NCBI RefSeq assembly: GCF_001942495.1
Contig: NZ_MKZS01000001.1
Coordinates: 1 to 32,927, forward strand
Source: Moorena bouillonii PNG
GTDB taxonomy: Bacteria > Cyanobacteriota > Cyanobacteriia > Cyanobacteriales > Coleofasciculaceae
Direction: 5' to 3'
Length of the DNA stretch: 32,927 bases
Made by a program: the position numbers and the translations under genes. This document shows positions 6,051-22,982 of this stretch, piece after piece (position 1 is the first letter of the stretch; each line of letters starts with the position of its first letter). Under the pieces are notes generated by a model that saw only the letters and a list, made by a program, of their open reading frames with translations, ran no database searches and had not been told where the DNA came from.

Positions 6051-6818
6051 TCAATTCAGATTGACCCTAGGTGGCGGCAACATAGAACTCTTGAGTTTTT
6101 GCTTCAACACTAACCAAAGGAAGACCGGAGCATCAAACAGGTATCGCCGCCACAATCGTCGTGGTTCAGATATTAGCCTGTGTAACCATTCTAAGCCTAC
6201 CTCGCTCATCCAGACAGGGGACCTTGGTTTGGTTCCTGCTTCAAAATCAAGGGTGGCACCTACTGCCATGAATATTTTAATGCTTGGTAATTGATCTTTG
6301 TACTTGTGTATCCACTTTTCTTGTTTAGGCGCACCAACTCCCACAGCTAGTACTGTAGCTCCAGAGTTGTTAACCATTTCTATGATTTCTTGGCATTCAG
6401 CTTCATTTTTATCAAATCCGAATGATGGGGAGTGCGCAGCGATAACCATTTCTCTGCCAACTTTAGCATTGACATTTTCTTGAGCTTTTTTAGCGACTCC
6501 TTCTCGTCCACCTAAGAGAAATATTTTAATAGTCTCATTGTTTCTGTGATAATTATAAAAAGCTGGAAAAAGGTCAGAACCAGAAATTTTCTCCTGTATG
6601 GGTGACCCCAAAAACCTTGACGCATAATACACAACTTTACTATCACATAATCTATAATCGGCAATTCGATATGCCTTCATGAATTCAGGGTCTTTTTGTA
6701 GCTTGACTAAGTGATCGACATTGGGAGTAAAAATCACCCCGGTCTCGAGCCGCTTTAAAAGCTCTGACTTTGAGATATTATCAATCTCTAAGTTTAGGAT
6801 TTTGACTATTTCTCTCAT
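6051..6818 (-). CDS. WecG/TagA/CpsF-family glycosyltransferase (GT26)
   Basis: A 255-residue GT26 enzyme. Members transfer a sugar, often ManNAc(A), to an undecaprenyl-PP-linked sugar as the second step of repeat-unit assembly at the inner membrane face. Family signatures are FTPNVDHLVKL, ADYRLCDSKVVYYASRFLG, IFLLGGREGVAKKA, GVGAPKQEKWI and the C-terminal EWLHRLISEPRRLWRRY. The frame is open to 6875, but ATG 6818 has an upstream AAAAGG six bases away and begins with the family-like MREIVKILNLEIDN, so it is preferred. It sits 1.3 kb from the export cluster on the opposite strand and likely serves the same pathway (inference). Confidence 0.9.
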   Translation of the reverse strand: MREIVKILNLEIDNISKSELLKRLETGVIFTPNVDHLVKLQKDPEFMKAYRIADYRLCDSKVVYYASRFLGSPIQEKISGSDLFPAFYNYHRNNETIKIFLLGGREGVAKKAQENVNAKVGREMVIAAHSPSFGFDKNEAECQEIIEMVNNSGATVLAVGVGAPKQEKWIHKYKDQLPSIKIFMAVGATLDFEAGTKPRSPVWMSEVGLEWLHRLISEPRRLWRRYLFDAPVFLWLVLKQKLKSSMLPPPRVNLN

Positions 6819-7068
6819 GTTTAACCTTTTTACGATGTCTCTCCTAGCTAAGGGATAAGCACTAAAAACAGCCAAGCTTTTCCCAACAATCTTCAGTCTT
6901 GGAGCCGAACTCAGTCAATTGGCCATTTACCGATCGGCTAACCAAGTTAGCTTGATACTGTTTCGAGCAAGATTTTATTTGGGAAAGAATAAAATTACAT
7001 TATCACAGTTTTAGTAATTTTACTATAAATTTGACTATAGTAGCTCTGAAAAATTGGTAAATACCCTT

Positions 7069-10165: not shown

Positions 10166-11227
10166 ATGTCCATTCTCAAGTTTTGGATAGCAGGGTTAAT
10201 TACTACCGTAGCAGCAATAGGTGTATCAGTTCCCAGTTGGGCTCTACCACTGTCTCCTGGCGATCGCCTTAGACTCTTTGTGGCTGGCGAAGAAGAAATC
10301 CCGGAAGCTGAACGCTTCAGTGCCACCTATGAAGTTAATTTGGATGGTTACATCAAGTTTCCCTACCTAGACCCTATAGCGGCAGCGGGTCGAGAAGTAT
10401 CAGAAATCGAGGAAGACCTAGTCAAGGCTTTGCTAGAAGGGGGCTTTTTTCAGCCTGATTTCCTTAAAGTCAGCATTCAACTGTTTGAGTGGGCTCCAAT
10501 TCAGGTAACTGTCGGAGGAGCTGTTTTTGAACCTGGTCGGGTTTTGATTAATGATACGGATTCTAAAGGTCGAGACTTACCGGCATCGATTGCTACTGTC
10601 TCAGGAGACTATCCTCCAGAACGCTACCTAACCTTTGCTATTTTAACGGCTGGTGGCATCAAACCAAATGCTAACATTGAACAGGTGCGCTTGGTTCGGG
10701 GTGAACAAGAACAGGTCATTGATTTATCTGGTGTCTTCAGCGGATCACCAGTAGAAGATATTCCCTTGATTGCTGGAGACCAAATCATTGTTCCTACTCG
10801 GGAGTTGCCTCAATATTATCTAGCCAGACCTTCCCAGCTTACTCCCTCAACTATTCCTGTGTTTTTATCCAATTTGACTAATCCCAATAATGGACGTGAG
10901 CTTAGAATCCAGGAAGTTGAATATGGCTCCCGTCTATCTCAAGCTGTAATTGCTGCTAGTTGTGTTGGAGGTACAGAAAGCACAAATGCAGATCGCCGTG
11001 CTCTGTTACTGCAAACTGACCGTACTACTGGGGAAACTCTGGCAATAGAACGTTCTGTAGAGGACTTGGTGAAGAAACCTAATGATGAGCAAGTTAATCC
11101 AGTGCTGATGCCAAGAGATAGTGTCGCTTGCTATGATTCAACGGTCACTAATGTCAAAAGTGTTTTTGACTTTATTGGCGATATCTTCAATCCCATTCGG
11201 ATTATTAAAGACATATTTATACCCTAA
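10166..11227 (+). CDS. Polysaccharide export outer-membrane protein (OPX, Wza/BexD-like)
   Basis: A 353-residue protein with a cleavable signal peptide (hydrophobic 5-24, likely cut after SWA at 26). A polysaccharide export (PES) domain covers about 27-110, with the start LSPGDRLRLFV and the YEVNLDGYIKFPYL motif. SLBB-like repeats (VTVGGAVFEPGRV and LTAGGIKPNANIEQVRLVRG) cover about 112-205. There is no lipobox cysteine, so it is not lipidated like E. coli Wza. The family forms or contacts the outer-membrane channel for capsule or exopolysaccharide secretion and works with a PCP protein, which is encoded next. Confidence 0.9.
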   Translation: MSILKFWIAGLITTVAAIGVSVPSWALPLSPGDRLRLFVAGEEEIPEAERFSATYEVNLDGYIKFPYLDPIAAAGREVSEIEEDLVKALLEGGFFQPDFLKVSIQLFEWAPIQVTVGGAVFEPGRVLINDTDSKGRDLPASIATVSGDYPPERYLTFAILTAGGIKPNANIEQVRLVRGEQEQVIDLSGVFSGSPVEDIPLIAGDQIIVPTRELPQYYLARPSQLTPSTIPVFLSNLTNPNNGRELRIQEVEYGSRLSQAVIAASCVGGTESTNADRRALLLQTDRTTGETLAIERSVEDLVKKPNDEQVNPVLMPRDSVACYDSTVTNVKSVFDFIGDIFNPIRIIKDIFIP

Positions 11228-11493: not shown

Positions 11494-13023
11494 ATGACTA
11501 CTAATTATAAGACTATAGCCCCATATCCCTATGAAAAATCAAATCTCATGCCTCTACGTTGGCTATTTTACTTGTGTTTAGGGATATCTATTAATGCCGG
11601 AATTTGGGGCTTAACATTTTTTTATTTGAAATCAGCTCAGCCAACTTATACCAGTACATGGAGAGTATCACTTCCTGTCAATGGCTCATCCACCAGAATT
11701 AATATCCCACAATTAGGGGGAGCGAGTTCAGATGTTAGGTCACCATTTGGCGATCGCTCCCATGACCCGAGGGAAAAGATGAAATTCATTGCGGAAAGTA
11801 AGCCGGTACTGAAGAATGCTGCCAGTGTACTGAACATGTCCCCTCAAGAGTTGGGCAAGCCTAGGGTCAAAATCGTTGACAATTCAACTATGATGGCCTT
11901 TGAAATCAAAGGAGACTCTGCTGAAGAAGCCCAACAGAAAGCTTTTGCTATGTACCAGGCTTTCGAGGATAGACTTGAACAACTTAGGCAAGAAGAATTA
12001 GTAGACAATCAGCTACCAGTTCAAGCTGATTTGCAGGCAGCTAAGAAAAATTTAGCAGACATTCAGAGAAGCCTGTCTGAACACAAAGCTAGAACCGGAT
12101 TGAACTCTAAAGAACAAGTCAACCAGCTATCATCCACTATAGAAAGTTTACGACAACAACAAATCGATTTGTTGGCCCAAGGGCGAGAAGCAAAAGCCAA
12201 TCTCAGCAACCTCTCAGCTAATCTAAAGTTATCGTCTGGACAAGCTGCTGATGCTTTTGTACTTAAGGCTGATCAGATATTTCAGCAAACCCTAAGGGAA
12301 TACAGTCAGGCTACCGCAGCCCTGACGGTTTTGAGTTCCAAATACGGTTCCAAGCATCCATCTGTAGTGGACGAAAAGAGCAAGCAAGAAAGTGCTAAAG
12401 CAGCTTTGCTACAGCGTAGTCAATCTTTGTTAGGTCGCCCCATGTCTTTGGCAATTATCGACCAGCTCAGTGTTAACTCTGGGCCTGAAACTGGTTCTTC
12501 CCGGGAAAATTTGCTGCGCCAAATTGTTGAGGTGCAAGCACGGCAAGAGGGTGTGGAAGCTAGGGCGTGGGTATTAAGCAACCAGATTGCTGAGCTGGAA
12601 GCCAAACTCAGACAAATGAGCCAGGATGCCTTGAGGATGGAGATCCTAGAACGCAATATGCGCATTGCGGAAACTATCTATGCTTCAACCTTAACTCAAT
12701 CAGCGATTGGTCGATTTAACCAATCCCTTTCCTATCCTCAAGTTCAGCTACTAGCTGAACCAAGCTTACCCCCAGACGCGATCGCACCGAAAAAGTCATC
12801 GGCTTTACTTGGTGCAACAGCTGGTTCATTGTTAATTAGTGCAGGACTATTTTTACTCTGGTTACGTCCCCATTTGCAAGGTAAATCACAGCCCTCAATC
12901 TACGACAAAGTAGAATCGTTTAACTCTGATGTTCCACCCTTACGTTCTCAACCATCAAATAATAGCTTGACAACATCTAATAGCTTAACATCGCCAATGG
13001 GGAACCAAAGAAAAGATTTTTGA
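11494..13023 (+). CDS. Polysaccharide co-polymerase (Wzz/Wzc-type chain-length protein) without kinase domain
   Basis: A 509-residue inner-membrane protein. TM1 is at about 22-46. It is followed by a Wzz-like alpha/beta part (PREKMKFIAESKPVLKNAA, DNSTMMAFEIKGDSAEEA) and a long coiled coil (about 170-400, with KYGSKHPSVVDEK). The LRQMSQDALRMEILERNM and PQVQLLAEPSLPPDAIAPKKSS segments, typical of GNVR/PCP proteins, lead into TM2 at about 435-458. The cytoplasmic tail is only about 50 residues and has no Walker motifs or Tyr cluster, so no BY-kinase is fused. It should set polymer length together with Wzy and bridge to the OPX protein. A paralogous periplasmic domain is fused to the flippase at 15460-17817. 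Confidence 0.92.
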   Translation: MTTNYKTIAPYPYEKSNLMPLRWLFYLCLGISINAGIWGLTFFYLKSAQPTYTSTWRVSLPVNGSSTRINIPQLGGASSDVRSPFGDRSHDPREKMKFIAESKPVLKNAASVLNMSPQELGKPRVKIVDNSTMMAFEIKGDSAEEAQQKAFAMYQAFEDRLEQLRQEELVDNQLPVQADLQAAKKNLADIQRSLSEHKARTGLNSKEQVNQLSSTIESLRQQQIDLLAQGREAKANLSNLSANLKLSSGQAADAFVLKADQIFQQTLREYSQATAALTVLSSKYGSKHPSVVDEKSKQESAKAALLQRSQSLLGRPMSLAIIDQLSVNSGPETGSSRENLLRQIVEVQARQEGVEARAWVLSNQIAELEAKLRQMSQDALRMEILERNMRIAETIYASTLTQSAIGRFNQSLSYPQVQLLAEPSLPPDAIAPKKSSALLGATAGSLLISAGLFLLWLRPHLQGKSQPSIYDKVESFNSDVPPLRSQPSNNSLTTSNSLTSPMGNQRKDF

Positions 13024-13098: not shown

Positions 13099-14337
13099 AT
13101 GAAACCGCAAAACTTTGAAGAAAAAGTAGTTTTCTATTATATAATATCCACCTACTTATTATTTTTTTTAGGTGCACAGTTTGTTTTTGCCCCAGCCCTA
13201 GCTTGGCTGCTAACCTTTTATCTAATTAAAAAGCTTTGGCAGCAAACATCAGATACTCCACCGGAAGAAAGGATTCGGATTCCCATTGGAGTATGGGTCT
13301 GGATTGTTTGCATATCAGTCATTGGCATAGCCTTAGTTGTGGGTCATTTAGATTGGGGTTTCTCAACTGTTAAAACTATAAAATCTTTTATTAACTCCTT
13401 TTTGAGAACTTGGGCCCTTCTCGCCTTATTTCCTTTAATTGGTTGCCTCAACATCCGACCACAAATAATCTATAGAGCAATTTCTATCCTTTCCCTACAA
13501 ACTCTGATCTTGGTGCCAATTACCTATGGGTTAAGTCTGACTGGGTTAGAGATGCCCTTGTATACTAGCACCCTAATGGCAAAAATTGGTGGTAACAGTC
13601 AACGTTACTACGCCGTAAGTCCTTACGTGATAAAAAGTGGTGAAACACGCCTTTTCTTATTTGCGCCTTGGGCTCCAGCATTGGCATTTGCCTGTAACGT
13701 ACACTTTTTCCTGAGTAGTAGAGACCCGGACATAAAGTGGCGTTTTATTGGTATGATTGGCTGTGCTGCTGCAATTGTGGGTTCAGTGTCCCGGATGGGG
13801 ATAATCTGCTTAGTGGGTATACCAATACTGGTAACATTTTTGGGAAATCTCACCGAACCCGCTATCCAAATTACAGCAGGAATAGGGAGTTTTATTGGTG
13901 GTCTATTTGGTCCCCAACTGCTAATGATAGCTAGAAACTTGAAAGACTCTTTTTCCGGTCAAAGATCTGCTTCGTCGCGGGTTAGGTCGGCCTTAGCTCG
14001 GCTTTCTCACCGTAAGTGGGAAGAAGATGCACCGATTTGGGGTCATGCCATTAAAGTGGGTAAAGGCCCTGATGTTGTCGCTGGTATGCCTATTGGGAGT
14101 CACCACACTTGGTATGGTGCTTTATATACTCATGGAATCGTCGGTTTTATTGGAATATTTATCCCTATAGTCTATACTTTTATAGAGCTTTTAATTAAAG
14201 CTCAAAGGAGTAAAGTTGCCACAACAGCACTAACAATACTACTAGTTTGTATCCTGTTCTCGTTTGGGGAAAATCTAGAGGGATTAGCTTACCTCTACTG
14301 GCCTGGTTTGGTTGTAGTAGGGATGGGACTAAAATAA
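13099..14337 (+). CDS. O-antigen polymerase/ligase-like protein (Wzy)
   Basis: A 412-residue integral membrane protein with about ten hydrophobic segments. A large periplasmic loop follows about residue 280, with SSRVRSALARLSHRKWEEDAPIWGH-type polymerase/ligase sequence, and then GSHHTWYGALYTHG near residue 330, which is the conserved loop of the O-antigen ligase/polymerase family. It would polymerise undecaprenyl-PP-linked repeat units on the periplasmic side. Its place between the PCP and GT genes supports Wzy rather than a WaaL ligase, but sequence alone does not separate these. Confidence 0.85.
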   Translation: MKPQNFEEKVVFYYIISTYLLFFLGAQFVFAPALAWLLTFYLIKKLWQQTSDTPPEERIRIPIGVWVWIVCISVIGIALVVGHLDWGFSTVKTIKSFINSFLRTWALLALFPLIGCLNIRPQIIYRAISILSLQTLILVPITYGLSLTGLEMPLYTSTLMAKIGGNSQRYYAVSPYVIKSGETRLFLFAPWAPALAFACNVHFFLSSRDPDIKWRFIGMIGCAAAIVGSVSRMGIICLVGIPILVTFLGNLTEPAIQITAGIGSFIGGLFGPQLLMIARNLKDSFSGQRSASSRVRSALARLSHRKWEEDAPIWGHAIKVGKGPDVVAGMPIGSHHTWYGALYTHGIVGFIGIFIPIVYTFIELLIKAQRSKVATTALTILLVCILFSFGENLEGLAYLYWPGLVVVGMGLK

Positions 14338-14415
14338 AAATGCTCAAGGGGTTTTTAGAGACCTTTTGTGGTAAATTACCATGCAATAATTATATACAAA
14401 AAAAGGATAATCGCC

Positions 14416-15399
14416 ATGCCCACCATATCTGTAATAGTTCCAGTTTATAACGGAGAAAAAACTATATTAGAAACGATCCAATCGATTCAAGCACAAACCT
14501 TTTCAGATTTTGAGTTAATTATTATTAATGACGGCTCAACTGATGGTACATTAGATGTAATCAGTACAGTCAACGATGATCGATTGAAAGTGTTCTCCTA
14601 TGAAAATGGCGGATTGCCAGTGGCTCGTAATCGTGGCATTCGTCGCTCTAGGGGCGAATTTATTACGTTTATAGATGCCGATGATTTATGGAAACCCGAT
14701 AAATTGGAGCTACAGTTAGCAGCACTGCAAAAAAATCCTGAAGCTGGAGTGGCTTACAGTTGGACTGCCTTTATAGATGAGAATAGCAAATTTTTGTTTG
14801 CTTGGCAACCACTTTATTGGGAGGGTAATGTTTATCCCGAATTACTAATTCGTAACTTCATATCCAGTGGTTCCAATATCATGGTAAAGCGGAAGTATAT
14901 TGAAGCCGCTGGAGAATTTGACCCATGCCTAAAATCAGTTGAAGATTGGGATTATTACCTCAGGCTAGCAGCTTTATGTCCTTTTGTACTGGTTCCTAAA
15001 TACCAAATTCTCTACCGTCGCTCTTCCCAGTCAATGACCTCTAAAGTGGATGTGATGGAGAAGGCGAACCTAATTGTAATTGAAAGAGCATTCAAGGCAG
15101 CTCCACCAGAACTTAAGTCTCTTAAAAATAAAAGTTTAGCGAATGCCTATCGTTATCTGGCTAAGCAGTGTATAGCTAATGCTTTTGATGATGAAGGAGT
15201 AAAGCTAGCTAGTCAAAAACTTAGCTATTCCATAAAACTTTACCCCAAATTTTTGCTAAGTAAGGAAACTATCCGTCTAATTTTAAAACTATTAATAATC
15301 AAAATTATGCCTAAAAAATTAGCTGGACATTTAATCAAACTAATCGGCCAGAAAATGCCGATGGTATCTGTGGATAATCGGATGATTTCAGAGCACTAA
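14416..15399 (+). CDS. Family 2 glycosyltransferase
   Basis: A 327-residue GT-A fold enzyme adding a sugar to the lipid-linked repeat unit on the cytoplasmic face. It starts ISVIVPVYNGEKTILETI, with NDGSTDGT (Asp39), the metal-binding FIDADDLW (DADD at 87-90), and the catalytic-base-type SVEDWDYYLRLA. An open GTG start exists at 14368, but ATG 14416 is preceded by AAAAAAAGGA at good spacing and gives the classical GT2 N-terminus. Sugar donor and linkage are unknown. It is less similar to the two downstream GT2 proteins than those are to each other. Confidence 0.93.
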   Translation: MPTISVIVPVYNGEKTILETIQSIQAQTFSDFELIIINDGSTDGTLDVISTVNDDRLKVFSYENGGLPVARNRGIRRSRGEFITFIDADDLWKPDKLELQLAALQKNPEAGVAYSWTAFIDENSKFLFAWQPLYWEGNVYPELLIRNFISSGSNIMVKRKYIEAAGEFDPCLKSVEDWDYYLRLAALCPFVLVPKYQILYRRSSQSMTSKVDVMEKANLIVIERAFKAAPPELKSLKNKSLANAYRYLAKQCIANAFDDEGVKLASQKLSYSIKLYPKFLLSKETIRLILKLLIIKIMPKKLAGHLIKLIGQKMPMVSVDNRMISEH

Positions 15400-15459: not shown

Positions 15460-17817
15460 GTGAACATTGTCAAAACAATCGGGAGTCGCATCAAGCACAA
15501 ACTAGGTAATAGAAGCACTTTTACTCGCAATCTTGGTTGGATGGGAGTGGCCCAGGCATTTATTCGGGTTTCCCGCTTAGGTGCAACGTTTATTTTGCCA
15601 CGCTTCTTAACTCCCCATGACTTTGGATTAGCTGCACTGGTTCTGACGACCTATGAATATTCACAAACAGTAACGCGGATCGGTGTTCATGCTAGAATTA
15701 TACAGGCGGAAGCCGATGAACTGGAAGACATTTGTAATAGTGCTTATTGGTTAAATTGGGTACTTTTTGCAAGTCTATTCGTTATGCAGTGCCTTGCTGC
15801 TTTTCCAGTTGCGTGGTTTTATAAAGATAACCAACTTATTTTACCCATTTGTCTATTAGCATTTAACTTTTTGATTGCTCCCTTAGGGGCAGTACAGTCA
15901 GCACTAATTCAAAGAGATAATCGAATTCAGATAACGGCTACCGCTCGAGCTCTCAGATATGCCACCTCCAATATTTTAACGGCTGTCTTTGCTGTTCTTC
16001 ATATGGGAATGTGGGCGATAGTACTTCCCATACTAATAGCTAGCCCTATAGAATTCATTACCTATCTGTTCAAACATCCCTGGCGGAGAACTGGCTCTTT
16101 CACAACCAAATACTGGGGTAAGATTTTTCGCTTTGGAATCAATTTCCTGGGGATTGAACTTTTAAAGACTCTCAGGGAAACTCTCGACTATCTTATCATT
16201 GGTCGCTTTATAGGAATTGACCTATTAGGTGTTTACTACTTTGCTTACAATGCTGGCTTGGGAATTAGCTTAACTATCGTCCAATCGATTACTACTGCTT
16301 TATACCCTGCCCTATGTGAAGTACGGACAAACTTATCGAAATTTAAGCAAACATACTTTAACAGTCTGAAGACGATTGGAAGAGTGATTGTTGGTTTTGT
16401 TGCTTTACAATCAAGTCTAGTTCCGTTTTATATTCCGATTATGGTTGGGGAAAAAATTCATACGGAAGGCTGGAGTATGGTGGTTCCCATCGTCATTTTA
16501 GTTTGCTTATCAGCAATTCCTAGACCCTTTGATATTGCTGGATTTCAGCTTTTAGCAGCCATTGAAAAACCGCACATTGGCTTGCTCTGGAATGTATTAT
16601 TTACCATGATATTTTCCTGTAGTCTACTGATAGCAGTGAAATGGGGAATCATCACGGTCGCTATATCGGTTTTACTGGTTCATGCGCTTTTAATTCCCTT
16701 ATTTGTGGTTTGGTCTGCTAGGTATGTCTTTGCTAAACCTGAAACCTCTCCTGTAGCCTTAGAGAATACTGTACTCCAATCTCATACTATACTCCAATCT
16801 CACGATGAGACTGATACTGATCAGTTTTATGTCAGCCAATGGACATTATCATTAGCCAGTAGTGGGACATTCCCTAACACTCAGGGTTCTGAATTTCGTG
16901 ATCCTGACAGTAATAACAGTAATAACAGTAATAACAGTAATAACAGTAATAGCAGTGCCGGGTTAAGCGATCGCTTCGATGATCCCAGAAAACACCTGAA
17001 GTTGATAGCTGAAAGTGTGGGGGTTTTAGAAGAAGCGGCAAAGCAGCTAAATATATCTGTAGATAGCTTAGATAAGCCTTCGATTCAACTAATCGATAAC
17101 TCTACAATGATGGTTTTTGAAATTTCAGGAGTCACCCCTGAGGAAGCGCAACGAAGAGCCTTCGCTATTAATCAGGCGTTTAACAAAAGACTGGAACAAC
17201 TCAGAAAGCAAGAAATTGCTCAACAACAAAAGACTATCCCAGTTTATATAAAGTCAGCCGAAAACGATCTAGAAAAAGCACAGCAACGCCTAGCTCAAAA
17301 AACGGCGAACATAGGATTGCCCTTACACCAGCTCTTAGAGACAATAGAAGCACTACGGCGCAAAAAGATTGAATTACGGCGCAAAAAGATTGAATTGCTA
17401 GCTGAGCTAGTACCGACTCAGTCTGATCATAGTCATTGTACAAATACTCAGGTGATGAATCCTGTTCACCATCAGCCTCAAGCTAGCTTATTCCAAGATG
17501 ATCCACCCTTAGAAATGGATGATATTAAACCACAACTACAAGGTAGTGAGGACAAGGCCAGGGATCTAGAGTTTCAGATTTCTCAGCTTGAAGTAAAACT
17601 TAGCAAAATGTCCCAAGATGCCTTGACTCTGGAAATTCTAGAACGAGATTTACGCATTGCACAAACCGTCTATTCCTCTGTTTTAAGCCAATGGGAACTA
17701 GTTAAGTCAGACTCATCTATTATGTATTATCCCCAACTGCAATTGGTAGCCGGTCCTACCTTACCCACCAGATCACAAATGCCAGACAGTCTAGTAAACT
17801 TGGGCAGAAAATTGTGA
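15460..17817 (+). CDS. Wzx-type flippase fused to a polysaccharide co-polymerase periplasmic domain
   Basis: A 785-residue two-part protein starting at GTG behind GATGGGAG. Residues 1-425 look like an oligosaccharide flippase (MOP/Wzx) with about 12 hydrophobic segments, including GVAQAFIRVSRLGATFILPRF and DYLIIGRFIGIDLLGVYYFAY. Residues 426-456 are a polar linker with a short duplication (VLQSHTILQSH). Residues 457-785 match the co-polymerase at 11494-13023: YVSQWTLSL against YTSTWRVSL, DDPRKHLKLIAES against DPREKMKFIAES, DNSTMMVFEISG against DNSTMMAFEIKG, and KMSQDALTLEILERDLRIA against QMSQDALRMEILERNMRIA. The match begins just after that protein's TM1 and ends just before its TM2. The coiled coil is about 100 residues shorter. 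An Asn-rich run (484-499) comes from 9-bp repeats. No frameshift is seen at the join. Confidence 0.9.
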   Translation: MNIVKTIGSRIKHKLGNRSTFTRNLGWMGVAQAFIRVSRLGATFILPRFLTPHDFGLAALVLTTYEYSQTVTRIGVHARIIQAEADELEDICNSAYWLNWVLFASLFVMQCLAAFPVAWFYKDNQLILPICLLAFNFLIAPLGAVQSALIQRDNRIQITATARALRYATSNILTAVFAVLHMGMWAIVLPILIASPIEFITYLFKHPWRRTGSFTTKYWGKIFRFGINFLGIELLKTLRETLDYLIIGRFIGIDLLGVYYFAYNAGLGISLTIVQSITTALYPALCEVRTNLSKFKQTYFNSLKTIGRVIVGFVALQSSLVPFYIPIMVGEKIHTEGWSMVVPIVILVCLSAIPRPFDIAGFQLLAAIEKPHIGLLWNVLFTMIFSCSLLIAVKWGIITVAISVLLVHALLIPLFVVWSARYVFAKPETSPVALENTVLQSHTILQSHDETDTDQFYVSQWTLSLASSGTFPNTQGSEFRDPDSNNSNNSNNSNNSNSSAGLSDRFDDPRKHLKLIAESVGVLEEAAKQLNISVDSLDKPSIQLIDNSTMMVFEISGVTPEEAQRRAFAINQAFNKRLEQLRKQEIAQQQKTIPVYIKSAENDLEKAQQRLAQKTANIGLPLHQLLETIEALRRKKIELRRKKIELLAELVPTQSDHSHCTNTQVMNPVHHQPQASLFQDDPPLEMDDIKPQLQGSEDKARDLEFQISQLEVKLSKMSQDALTLEILERDLRIAQTVYSSVLSQWELVKSDSSIMYYPQLQLVAGPTLPTRSQMPDSLVNLGRKL
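16909..16956. repeat. In-frame 9-bp repeat coding for Asn-Asn-Ser
   Basis: Four AGTAATAAC units, one AGTAATAGC and a final AGT lie inside the fusion gene and encode a Ser/Asn linker at residues 484-499. Being a multiple of three, copy changes would alter linker length without breaking the frame. Confidence 0.95.
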
Positions 17818-17968
17818 TCAGTTTCTGGGAGGATAATAGTGCTCACGAGGTAATTTTTAGTGGTCAGTTGTCAGTTTCATATATTTATCTATTTTACCTA
17901 TTTCAGGATTAATTTTTTAAAAAACGTTTAAATCAAAACTAGTTCTCTTGAAAACCAGTGTCCAAACA

Positions 17969-18994
17969 ATGAAACATGTTTCTGTCATTATTCCAGTCTA
18001 CGGAGTTGAAAACTATATTGCAGCAGCGGTGCAGTCTGTTCTCGACCAGACCTATACCAACTTTGAAGTGCTCATTATTGACGATGAATCCCCAGACAGT
18101 AGTATAAAAATTTGTCAAGAATTTTCGGATCATCGAATTAAGATTATTCATCAAACTAATCGGGGACTTGCTGGAGCGCGAAATACAGGAATTCGCCAGG
18201 CCAAAGGAGATTATTTAGCCTTTTTAGATGGGGATGACTTGTGGTTGCCTCAGAAACTGGAAAGACATATTGAACACTTAGAAAAATTTCCAGAGGTAGG
18301 GGTTAGTTTTTGCCGTTCTGCATTGATTGATGAATCGGGAAATTTATTGAAAACTTATCTAATGCCTAAGTTAAAGAACATTACCCGATCAGATTTATTC
18401 CGGTCTAGTCCTATTGGTAATGGTTCAGCTCCGGTAATTCGACGGGAAGTCTTTGAAGCGATTAGGTATCAAGATAACCTTTACGGCACTACAGAAGATT
18501 TTTACTTTGATGAAAACTTCCGCCGCGCTGAAGATATTGAATGTTGGCTACGTATTGCGATTCAGACAGACTGGAAAATTGAGGGAATCCCTGAAGCACT
18601 AACCCTATATCGAGTGAATTCAGCCAGTCTTTCAGCGAACTTAGTCAAACAGTTAGATTCCTGGAAACAAGTACTAGCAAAAACTCGCTCCTACGCTCCT
18701 GACTTGATTGAGAAGTGGGGAAATTTAGCCCTGGCCTATCGATTGCGAAACTTTGCTCGTAGTGCAGTACGTCTCAAAGATGGACCAATGTCTGTCAAAC
18801 TAATTAATGGTGCTTTGGCAACTTACTGGCGTCTTCTCTTGGAAGAACCAAGCCGTACCCTTCGGACTTTGGCTGCTGCCTATTTACTTTTGCTGTTGCC
18901 TAAGCCCCTATATTACTACCTCGAAGTTCTGGCTGTCAAAGTAGTGGGAATGATCCAAAGACGTCAGATTTTACAAGACAAACTTGGACAATAA
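17969..18994 (+). CDS. Family 2 glycosyltransferase (first of a tandem pair)
   Basis: A 341-residue GT2 with VSVIIPVYGVENYIAAAV at the start, IIDDESPDSS, AFLDGDDLWLPQKLERH (metal-binding DGDD) and AEDIECWLRIAIQTDWKIEG (catalytic acidic pair). A TTG seven codons upstream (17948) is an alternative start. ATG 17969 is chosen for the normal family N-terminus. The C-terminus (about 255-325) has helices with a hydrophobic run LAAAYLLLLLPKPLYYYLEV that could associate with the membrane. It is a clear paralogue of the next gene. Confidence 0.92.
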   Translation: MKHVSVIIPVYGVENYIAAAVQSVLDQTYTNFEVLIIDDESPDSSIKICQEFSDHRIKIIHQTNRGLAGARNTGIRQAKGDYLAFLDGDDLWLPQKLERHIEHLEKFPEVGVSFCRSALIDESGNLLKTYLMPKLKNITRSDLFRSSPIGNGSAPVIRREVFEAIRYQDNLYGTTEDFYFDENFRRAEDIECWLRIAIQTDWKIEGIPEALTLYRVNSASLSANLVKQLDSWKQVLAKTRSYAPDLIEKWGNLALAYRLRNFARSAVRLKDGPMSVKLINGALATYWRLLLEEPSRTLRTLAAAYLLLLLPKPLYYYLEVLAVKVVGMIQRRQILQDKLGQ

Positions 18995-19022: not shown

Positions 19023-20060
19023 ATGGATTATAAAATGAAAAAAGTTTCCGTCATCACTCCAGTCTACAACGTTGAGAAGTATATTGCTGCTACAGTACAG
19101 TCAGTTTTGGATCAAACTTACCAAAGTTTTGAATATTTGCTGATTGATGATGGTTCTCCTGACCAAAGTGTAGAGATTTGCCAGCAGTTCCTAGACCCCA
19201 GAATCAAAATTATTCGTCAGGAAAATCAGGGAGCTAATGCAGCAAGGAATGAAGGTATCCGCCAAGCCCAGGGAGAGTATTTAGCATTTTTAGATGGCGA
19301 TGACCTATGGTTGCCTGAAAAGCTAGAAAAACATATTGAACATTTGGAAAACAATCCCAATTTGGGGATTAGCTTTAGCTGTTCTGGGTTTATCGATGAA
19401 GCAGGAAATTCCCTAGGAATCTATCAACTACCCAAGCTAAAGGACATCACCATGGGTGACATCATTTGCCGTAATCCTATTAGTAATGGCTCCTGTGCTG
19501 TGTTCCGCAAGGAGGTATTTGAAGCTATTAAGTACCAAGAGACTATTGACGGAAAGACCAAAGACCTTTATTGGGATGAGGGATTGCAAGGGTCACAGGA
19601 TTTGGATTGTTGGTTTCGCATTGCTATCCAAACCAATTGGCACCTGGAAGGCATTCCTGACTCTTTGACTCTATACCGAGTCAATTCTGGTGGTATATCA
19701 GCTAACTTGTTCAAAAAACAAAGGTCTTGGGAACAGGTAATTGAGAAGACTCGTTCCTATGCTCCTGAGGTGGTGGTTGAGTGGGAAAACCGCGCCCGTG
19801 CTTACCATTCGAGGTATCTAGCTCGTCGGGCAGTTACCTTGAGAGATGGTGCCATGGCTGTCCAATTCTTCAACGAAGCTCTGGGGAGCTACTGGCAGAT
19901 GCTCTGGGAAGAACCACGTCGTACCGTGTTAACTGGGGCTGCGGCCTATTTGCTCTGGCTTATACCTGAGAATCTTTACAAGCATATAGAAGCTTTAGCT
20001 TTAAAAACCACAGGGTCTTCACAAAAGCGCCGGATTTCTCAAGCAATCAGAGGTACATGA
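19023..20060 (+). CDS. Family 2 glycosyltransferase (second of a tandem pair)
   Basis: A 345-residue GT2 colinear with the preceding gene: KVSVITPVYNVEKYIAATV, IDDGSPDQS, AFLDGDDLWLPEKLEKHIEH, SQDLDCWFRIAIQTNWHLEG and SLTLYRVNSGGISANL. ATG at 19035 (MKKVSVIT) is an equally possible start. The strong full-length similarity points to a local duplication followed by divergence, probably for a different donor or acceptor sugar. It is the last gene of the export cluster, and a 17-bp inverted repeat follows. Confidence 0.92.
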   Translation: MDYKMKKVSVITPVYNVEKYIAATVQSVLDQTYQSFEYLLIDDGSPDQSVEICQQFLDPRIKIIRQENQGANAARNEGIRQAQGEYLAFLDGDDLWLPEKLEKHIEHLENNPNLGISFSCSGFIDEAGNSLGIYQLPKLKDITMGDIICRNPISNGSCAVFRKEVFEAIKYQETIDGKTKDLYWDEGLQGSQDLDCWFRIAIQTNWHLEGIPDSLTLYRVNSGGISANLFKKQRSWEQVIEKTRSYAPEVVVEWENRARAYHSRYLARRAVTLRDGAMAVQFFNEALGSYWQMLWEEPRRTVLTGAAAYLLWLIPENLYKHIEALALKTTGSSQKRRISQAIRGT

Positions 20061-21489: not shown

Positions 21490-22188
21490 ATGAAAGTTTC
21501 ATCCTCGACATCTCAAAATCTGCCCCAGTCCAAGATACAGCTAGGACTAAGGTTAGGGATTGGGGCAATAGTTCTAGTGACAGCTGCCTTAATTTTGCTA
21601 TTTACGCCGGTTGGGTCTTGGCTGAAGCTGGAAAATCTGAGATGGCTTCAGGAAAGCATGGGTATTTTTGGACCACTGGGGTACATTTTGATTTATATTG
21701 TTGCCACAGTACTAGCTGTTCCTGATGCGATTTTAACCTTTTCGGCTGGTGCTCTGTTTGGACTAATGCTCGGGACTTTGTGGACTGTGATTGGTGCTAC
21801 TTTGGGAGCAACGGCTGCGTTTATGATTGCTCGCTTTGTTGCTGGTGATTGGGTTAAAGATAAGTTTCAGGACTCTCGTTTGGAGCAACTCAGTGAAGGA
21901 ATTGAGAACAATGGTTTTTGGTTTGTGCTCTCCATTCGCCTGGCACCAATTTTTCCATTCAATGCGGTTAACTATTTGTTTGGCTTAACACCAATTCCTC
22001 TACCCACTTATGTGATAGCCACCGCAGTGGGAATTATCCCGGCTACCTTTGCCTATGCTTGGTTAGGTCGCAGTGGTCTGGAAGCTATCAGCGGTAGTCC
22101 CCCCTGGCAACTGATCGGAGCACTAGTTGTATTAGCGGTGCTATCTACCACTCCCCTACTTTGGAAACAATCAAGACTTGGGCAATAA
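21490..22188 (+). CDS. TVP38/TMEM64-family (VTT domain) membrane protein
   Basis: A 232-residue inner-membrane protein with about five or six hydrophobic helices. The VTT/SNARE-associated domain spans about 70-190: TVLAVPDAILTFSAGALFG, the glycine-rich GTLWTVIGATLGATAAFMIARFV, and the LSIRLAPIFPFNAVNYLFGLT motif typical of the family. Homologues are DedA relatives with lipid-scramblase or undecaprenyl-phosphate-related roles, but the function of the cyanobacterial group is not settled. A paralogue follows 131 bp downstream. Confidence 0.92.
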   Translation: MKVSSSTSQNLPQSKIQLGLRLGIGAIVLVTAALILLFTPVGSWLKLENLRWLQESMGIFGPLGYILIYIVATVLAVPDAILTFSAGALFGLMLGTLWTVIGATLGATAAFMIARFVAGDWVKDKFQDSRLEQLSEGIENNGFWFVLSIRLAPIFPFNAVNYLFGLTPIPLPTYVIATAVGIIPATFAYAWLGRSGLEAISGSPPWQLIGALVVLAVLSTTPLLWKQSRLGQ

Positions 22189-22319
22189 CTCTATTTGTCG
22201 GGTGTGTTAATAACAGACCCTAGACCATCAGGGCGAATATAAAAGCGAATAAAAGTCGAGTTTTGCCTAAGTCCTGACCCTAAGTCCTAAGAATTTAAGG
22301 TGATTAAGGTAGAAGATTG

Positions 22320-22982
22320 ATGAGATTGAACAGATTACTCAAAAGACGAAGCCTTTGGTTAGCGATCGCGCTATTTATTTTAGTCCTATTGTGTTACTCG
22401 ACTCCTGTCAGAGCTTTATTTAACCAGAGGTTCCTAGTGCAACAGTTGCAAGGATTAGGCCATTGGGCAATCTGTTTATTTATCCTGGTTTATGCTCTGG
22501 CAACGGTTTTAGGAATTCCTGGCACAGTACTGACTATCGCTGGTGGTACAGTGTTTGGTTTAGTTTGGGGTACCTTCTGGTCTGTGATCGGAGCAACCTT
22601 AGGCGCATTGGGAGCATTTTGGGTAGCGCGTTACCTATTGCGAGATTGGGTTGAATACAAGTTCAGGCATCATAAAGCATTGGTCAGCTTCAATCAAGCA
22701 GTGATGCAAACACCCCTAATGTTTGTTTTAGCAGTACGCTTTGCCCCCATTTCTCCGTTTAATGTAGTGAATTTCCTGTTTGGTCTAACCCCGATTGGCT
22801 CGGTAGAGTATACCCTTGGCACTTTCTTTGGGATTATTCCTGGTACCCTCGCCTATACTTGGCTGGGAGTAACTGGAGGGGAAGCTTTGCAAGGAGGCGA
22901 TCGCTTACCATTTTTCCTAGCACTCAGTTTCCTAGGTATACTGTCTGCCTTGCCACTGTTGGCAAAGCGAAAAAAGAAATAG
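22320..22982 (+). CDS. TVP38/TMEM64-family (VTT domain) membrane protein, paralogue
   Basis: A 220-residue paralogue of the preceding protein, with TVLGIPGTVLTIAGGTVFG, GTFWSVIGATLGALGAFWVARYL and LAVRFAPISPFNVVNFLFGLTPIG. It has an N-terminal TM and a Lys-rich end (AKRKKK). A TTG codon directly precedes the ATG, which I take as start. The pair probably arose by tandem duplication. Both sit just beyond the polysaccharide cluster, but a repeat-filled 1.4 kb spacer argues against shared transcription. Confidence 0.92.
   Translation: MRLNRLLKRRSLWLAIALFILVLLCYSTPVRALFNQRFLVQQLQGLGHWAICLFILVYALATVLGIPGTVLTIAGGTVFGLVWGTFWSVIGATLGALGAFWVARYLLRDWVEYKFRHHKALVSFNQAVMQTPLMFVLAVRFAPISPFNVVNFLFGLTPIGSVEYTLGTFFGIIPGTLAYTWLGVTGGEALQGGDRLPFFLALSFLGILSALPLLAKRKKK

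Follow-up and report, generated by a model that had tools for sequence, protein, structure and literature searches.

In the parts of two papers that outline Wzx/Wzy-type polysaccharide systems (PMC7809406, PMC10030265), Wzx flips and Wzy polymerizes, while polysaccharide co-polymerases (PCPs) form oligomeric rings, are thought to surround Wzy, and determine chain length. Cooperation between flippase and co-polymerase is also considered in passages on proposed Wzx-Wzy-Wzz complexes (PMC10030265) and on the rhizobial proteins PssL, PssT and PssP (PMC4182512). In those complexes the proteins are separate, whereas in the locus described here a PCP-derived piece is covalently attached to the flippase and the full PCP is kept. 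At the level of titles and abstract beginnings, no natural flippase-PCP fusion could be found among the papers listed from the open-licence literature, which agrees with a preliminary description of this DNA that had called the architecture unusual. The words 'fusion', 'fused' and 'Moorea' are absent from the main text of a survey of cyanobacteria (PMC4594306), and the wording 'Wzx fused' occurs in PMC3412221.

The window, that is, the whole stretch of DNA analyzed (32,927 nucleotides of Moorena bouillonii PNG), contains the fused gene and its parts as follows.

15460..17817, + strand: fused gene, 785 aa, Wzx-type flippase plus PCP-derived domain (ORF, BLASTP, Pfam; same fusion in genomes G002 and G003)
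15460..16734, + strand: complete flippase half, residues 1-425, probably 12 transmembrane segments (PF13440; stand-alone homologs stop at about the same point)
16735..16827, + strand: hydrophilic linker without a transmembrane segment, residues 426-456 (hydropathy)
16828..17796, + strand: PCP-derived domain lacking TM1, TM2 and the coiled-coil tip, residues 457-779 (paralogy, alignment, models)
16909..16956, + strand: SNN-repeat low-complexity insert, residues 484-499, varying in length or sequence among three genomes
17410..17529, + strand: variable loop, residues 651-690, in place of the native coiled-coil tip (alignment, omega)

The frame begins with GTG and runs for 785 codons without an internal stop to a stop codon ending at 17817, as had been claimed for a single uninterrupted frame over both halves. 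The assignment of residues 1-425 to a flippase also held: residues 45-332 matched PF13440 with an E-value of 4.5e-49 (167.7 bits against a cut-off of 23), and this half further matched PF01943 (E 2.8e-27), while the NCBIfam models matched by it in a scan of the fused protein stayed below their cut-offs. Thus, it was confirmed that 15460-17817 encodes a MOP/Wzx-type flippase joined to a PCP-derived domain. The neighboring genes, including the native PCP of the cluster, are listed below.

10166..11227, + strand: polysaccharide export (OPX) gene, PF02563 (Pfam)
11494..13023, + strand: native PCP of the cluster, 509 aa with two transmembrane segments, paralog of the fused domain
12220..12519, + strand: coiled-coil tip of the native PCP, residues 243-342, largely absent from the fused copy
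13099..14337, + strand: Wzy/O-antigen-ligase-like polymerase, PF04932 at 1.4e-4, under the cut-off (Pfam)
14368..15399, + strand: family 2 glycosyltransferase, directly upstream of the fusion (Pfam)
17948..18994, + strand: family 2 glycosyltransferase, directly downstream of the fusion (Pfam)
19023..20060, + strand: family 2 glycosyltransferase, similar to the 17948..18994 product (Pfam)

The fused gene is therefore placed in a Wzx/Wzy cluster together with Wzy, PCP, OPX and glycosyltransferase genes, the Wzy assignment being based on the weak PF04932 match and on synteny. Other genes were noted in the window: a WecG/TagA/CpsF-type glycosyltransferase (PF03808) near the cluster but on the opposite strand (6051-6875, - strand), two adjoining genes for VTT-domain membrane proteins, perhaps tandem paralogs (21490-22188 and 22317-22982, + strand), and an RtcB RNA ligase whose residues 87-294 match an intein-splicing domain (PF14890; 24911-26743, - strand).

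The second half of the fused protein had been described as a paralog of the 11494-13023 product, borrowed from between its two membrane anchors and with a shortened coiled coil, and alignment bore out each of these points. By BLASTP, residues 457-650 matched the native PCP with 38% identity (E 1e-33) and residues 688-779 with 45% identity (E 8e-19). Together the matches span native residues 52-431; hydropathy and a simple topology program placed TM1 at 23-45 and TM2 at 437-457, so that the match starts six residues past TM1 and ends just ahead of TM2. In the alignment, native residues 1-51 (including TM1) and 444-509 (including most of TM2) had no counterpart in the fused copy, and the same was true of 71 positions within native 243-342 and of four more at 205-208. 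The position of the tip is taken by a loop of some 40 residues (651-690) that aligns poorly.

Scans of the fused protein against Pfam and NCBIfam gave no Wzz, PCP or GNVR match for residues 457-785, an outcome that the preliminary description had named as evidence against its own reading. We attribute this miss to insensitivity of the libraries, because the native cluster PCP likewise had no Pfam match and because Foldseek ranked PCP chains first (see below); the BLASTP paralogy also favors a PCP origin. For the native protein only weak TIGR03007 and TIGR01005 matches were obtained, under the NCBIfam cut-off. At E-values of 0.01 or better, GNVR matched 16 and Wzz 3 of the 30 rows of PCP alignment A2, and neither matched its fused row. 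A model of the fused domain, built from four sequences of which two were native PCPs, had a pLDDT of 68.2 and showed the order b-a-a-b-b-long helices-b. When it was searched with Foldseek, the first 26 rows were PCP chains (Wzc, WzzB and KpsE), five with E-values of 0.001 or lower, and in a separate Foldseek search of models rows 1-11 were again PCP chains. The domain is thus predicted to have the PCP fold. The full-length model was poor (pLDDT 41.5, with residues 1-459 below 50). Taken together, homology and the predicted fold link the domain to PCPs, and neither the two flanking transmembrane segments nor a Pfam Wzz/GNVR match was found; because the flanking segments were tested for and are absent, the fusion is not classed as a PCP.

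The origin of the module was analyzed in a PCP tree of 38 rows (35 native PCPs and 3 fused domains). The fused domains joined the Moorena cluster PCP with support of 99/86, within a clade holding the g2 and g8 orthologs, and the branch leading to them was long (1.4 versus 0.36 for the native copies). Derivation from the second PCP of the genome (4040559-4041962) was rejected by the AU test (p 0.0009). Joining the fused copy to the g2 orthologs instead was not rejected (p-AU 0.116), nor was an origin before the split from g2 (p 0.116 and 0.101), so that duplication after that split is the history of the best tree only. On the basis of these trees, a duplicate of the cluster PCP is the most likely source of the module, acquired at or close to the base of the lineage. 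The history of the flippase half is separate, as this half groups with the f32 and g2 flippases (84/89).

The side of the membrane on which the module lies is important for its possible function. Stand-alone homologs of the flippase half end in RYVF plus a short tail, at about the point where the fusion continues, and the averaged hydropathy of 26 flippases is compatible with six hairpins. When loop borders were drawn by eye, even (cytoplasmic) loops and tails carried 22.5 Lys and Arg residues per protein versus 3.5 for odd loops, the difference in density being modest (0.173 over 131 residues versus 0.133 over 26 residues). No strongly hydrophobic, membrane-spanning-like segment could be observed by hydropathy after residue 426, where the best KD19 value was 0.74 versus 1.59 and 1.98 for the native PCP segments. 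A simple dynamic-programming topology run with uncalibrated emission values assigned a cytoplasmic C-terminus to 22 of the 26 flippases, with margins of at most 4.8 but just 8-10 helices, which is an undercount. For the family profile, it gave 12 helices with the C-terminus inside at one of three penalties, 2.7 ahead of 11 helices with the C-terminus outside, and 8 helices at the other two. In two of the three fusions, nine helices were followed by a further one within the fused part, an arrangement that would leave the linker outside. As a control, the two segments of the native PCP were found but oriented with the N-terminus outside, the reverse of the known orientation of PCPs.

The preliminary description had offered two arrangements: an odd number of helices, with TM12 acting as the missing TM1, or a domain working on the cytoplasmic side. 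The first is not supported, given that stand-alone homologs end at about the same place, that the hydropathy can be taken as six hairpins and that the charge counts differ (22.5 versus 3.5, the odd loops being short). Hydropathy and charge favor the second without settling it, since they point to a cytoplasmic C-terminus of the flippase; the case is not strengthened by the topology program, whose margins were small, or by the low-quality model of the flippase half. On these sequence features, the module is probably cytoplasmic. We know of no precedent for a PCP fold in the cytoplasm. For comparison, WzxE has 12 transmembrane segments and requires its arginine-rich C-terminal tail, according to part of a published account (PMC11706664).

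We tentatively favor, as a reading that is about as likely to be right as wrong, a lineage-specific flippase with a built-in PCP module that lacks transmembrane segments and has been reused for assembly or scaffolding. Within the Moorena lineage, a complete Wzx-type flippase would have acquired at its C-terminus a module taken from a second cluster PCP copy. Trimming of this copy would have spared the alpha/beta base and the lower coiled coil and removed the two membrane anchors along with most of the tip. Judging from homology, the flippase half would still flip the lipid-linked repeat unit. With no anchor of its own and a probably cytoplasmic C-terminus before it, the module would most likely sit in the cytoplasm just beneath the flippase, where the retained base and helices may self-associate in the manner of ring-forming PCP modules and so cluster several flippases. 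The module might also bind the flanking glycosyltransferases, in which case units could be made and flipped at one spot. A cytoplasmic module would be out of reach of the periplasmic portion of the native PCP and would have to scaffold at the inner face, and the missing tip speaks against a stand-alone chain-length regulator on either side of the membrane. The more specific proposal that a PCP domain moved across the membrane has become a cytoplasmic flippase-assembly module, forming a hub of several flippases beneath the polymerization site that perhaps also binds glycosyltransferases, is possible but somewhat less likely.

The fused domain could alternatively be periplasmic, through an odd helix number or a re-oriented tail, with TM12 replacing TM1, so that a short-armed subunit of the native ring would tie the flippase to the Wzy/PCP complex and alter chain length. 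We consider this unlikely, although several observations are in its favor: the PCP base, the DPR motif and the prolines near the lost TM2 are kept, purifying selection resembles that on the native copy (see below), the crude topology program puts the linker outside in two of three fusions, and mutant complementation has led to the proposal of a complex of Wzx, Wzy and Wzz, as cited in a passage of PMC10030265. However, charge bias and hydropathy favor a cytoplasmic C-terminus, stand-alone homologs end at the same short tail, the passage on WzxO157 in PMC11706664 places the arginine-rich Wzx C-terminus on the cytoplasmic surface, and the tip, where constraint on the native copy is strongest, is largely absent.

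Somewhat less probable still is that the module serves as a cytoplasmic docking platform, either for glycosyltransferases or for those ends of the native PCP that lie in the cytoplasm, without a role in self-assembly. The fused gene does lie between glycosyltransferase genes, and a two-hybrid assay detected contact between PssC, a glycosyltransferase, and the rhizobial PCP PssP2, yet the heading of that two-hybrid section names PssT, PssP and PssC as partners and not the flippase PssL (PMC4182512). In addition, the PCP-conserved residues that are kept suit PCP-type assembly at least equally well.

We also measured selection across the three fusion genomes, and residue conservation relative to native PCPs. 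Pooled over residues 506-650 and 691-779, omega was 0.178 (0.095-0.315), and none of 2000 bootstraps reached 1, whereas linker and loop (426-505 and 651-690) gave 0.68 (interval 0.35-1.50). The folded parts of the fused domain are thus under purifying selection. The homologous part of the native PCP had an omega of 0.206. Its tip (12220-12519) was exceptionally conserved across the three genomes (0.026, upper bound 0.11) and may serve in contacts, for instance with the export protein. Among positions at which at least 90% of the 27 native PCP rows agree, 43 are still present in the fused domain, of which 33 are kept and 10 changed, 8 of the latter in linker or loop; outside these two regions 33 of 35 are kept. 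Another 16 such positions were deleted along with TM1, TM2 and the tip. A tolerated and decaying accident of fusion would be consistent with the long branch after duplication, the lost anchors and tip and the weak constraint on linker and loop. Nevertheless, the omega of 0.18 in the folded parts with a bootstrap interval well under 1, the absence of stops in three genomes and the kept conserved residues make such a passenger improbable.

A search for the same two-domain layout in cyanobacteria, as had been suggested, revealed the fusion in three of four genomes of the genus (frames of 801, 801 and 807 aa; 100, 94 and 92% protein identity), the same join thus being present in two further assemblies. 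In the fourth (G001), only distant homologs of either half could be identified. The order OPX-PCP-Wzy-glycosyltransferase-fusion-glycosyltransferase was identical in all three. Because this join recurs in two other assemblies whose proteins are 94% and 92% identical to the fusion, misassembly is very unlikely and was rejected, and an artefact of gene calling at this point is equally unlikely.

At the family level, three of 20 genomes carried the fusion, and the remaining flippase matches had frames of 423-489 aa. Three other genomes of the family (G004, G015 and G010) shared the same gene order with flippase frames of 464, 466 and 434 aa. Two stand-alone flippases of another genus of the family (G004 L040:7450-8817 and G015 L041:8545-9918) were extended at the same place by some 30 residues that form an acidic C-terminal tail. 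In the order sample, where up to four candidates were scored per genome, 99 of 388 genomes had a flippase homolog at E 1e-60 or better, and among the matches listed no frame exceeded 491 aa apart from the three fusions. In the class sample (388 genomes, profile search), one further true long form was identified among the matches listed and inspected (G526); apart from this one and the frames discussed next, the remaining long frames among the matches listed were of 501-519 aa. The 928-aa frames of G455 and G400 were rejected as fusions and read as upstream frame extensions, because the flippase match starts at residue 443 of a 915-aa ORF, just past an internal methionine, and because other long ORFs overlap the preceding stretch. 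In G451, G599 and G432, the ORFs turned out to be of 515, 488 and 426 aa. A peptide-pattern scan of genome contigs gave, among the matches listed, one relative of the fused domain, in Moorena sp. SIO3I8.

In the long form of G526, another cyanobacterium (L080:3796-5925, 709 aa), the flippase is followed by a hydrophobic segment that was recognized by eye, then by a region rich in Ser and Pro and by MORN repeats (PF02493, 5.8e-11). It shares with the Moorena fusion the flippase family and a C-terminal extension, and its gene lies directly after a Wzy gene, but its MORN domain is unrelated and comes behind an extra hydrophobic segment, an independent event. The C-terminus of this flippase family has therefore accepted an added domain at least twice. 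Compared with Wzx/MOP flippases (PF13440, PF01943; Escherichia coli WzxE), the Moorena protein has the same PF13440 match and OPX-PCP-Wzy-glycosyltransferase setting and shares the RYVF end with stand-alone homologs; these stop within about 5-45 residues of that point, whereas the fusion has 360 more. With PCPs (WzzB/WzzE/FepE, Wzc, KpsE and the cyanobacterial cluster PCP) the fused domain has in common its 38-45% identity to the cluster PCP, the predicted fold and the conserved residues of the folded part. Unlike them, it lacks TM1, TM2 and most of the tip, follows a flippase and is probably on the opposite side of the membrane.

Both halves belong to known families; what was not seen among the papers listed is their joining, together with the missing anchors and the module's probable transfer to the other side of the membrane. 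That flippase, polymerase and co-polymerase work as one machine is a proposal, still open, that a passage of PMC10030265 bases on mutant complementation, and a natural, selected flippase-PCP fusion offers a ready covalent link for testing it. If the module is indeed cytoplasmic, the PCP fold would be able to serve outside the periplasm, and attached domains would be able to organize Wzx proteins.
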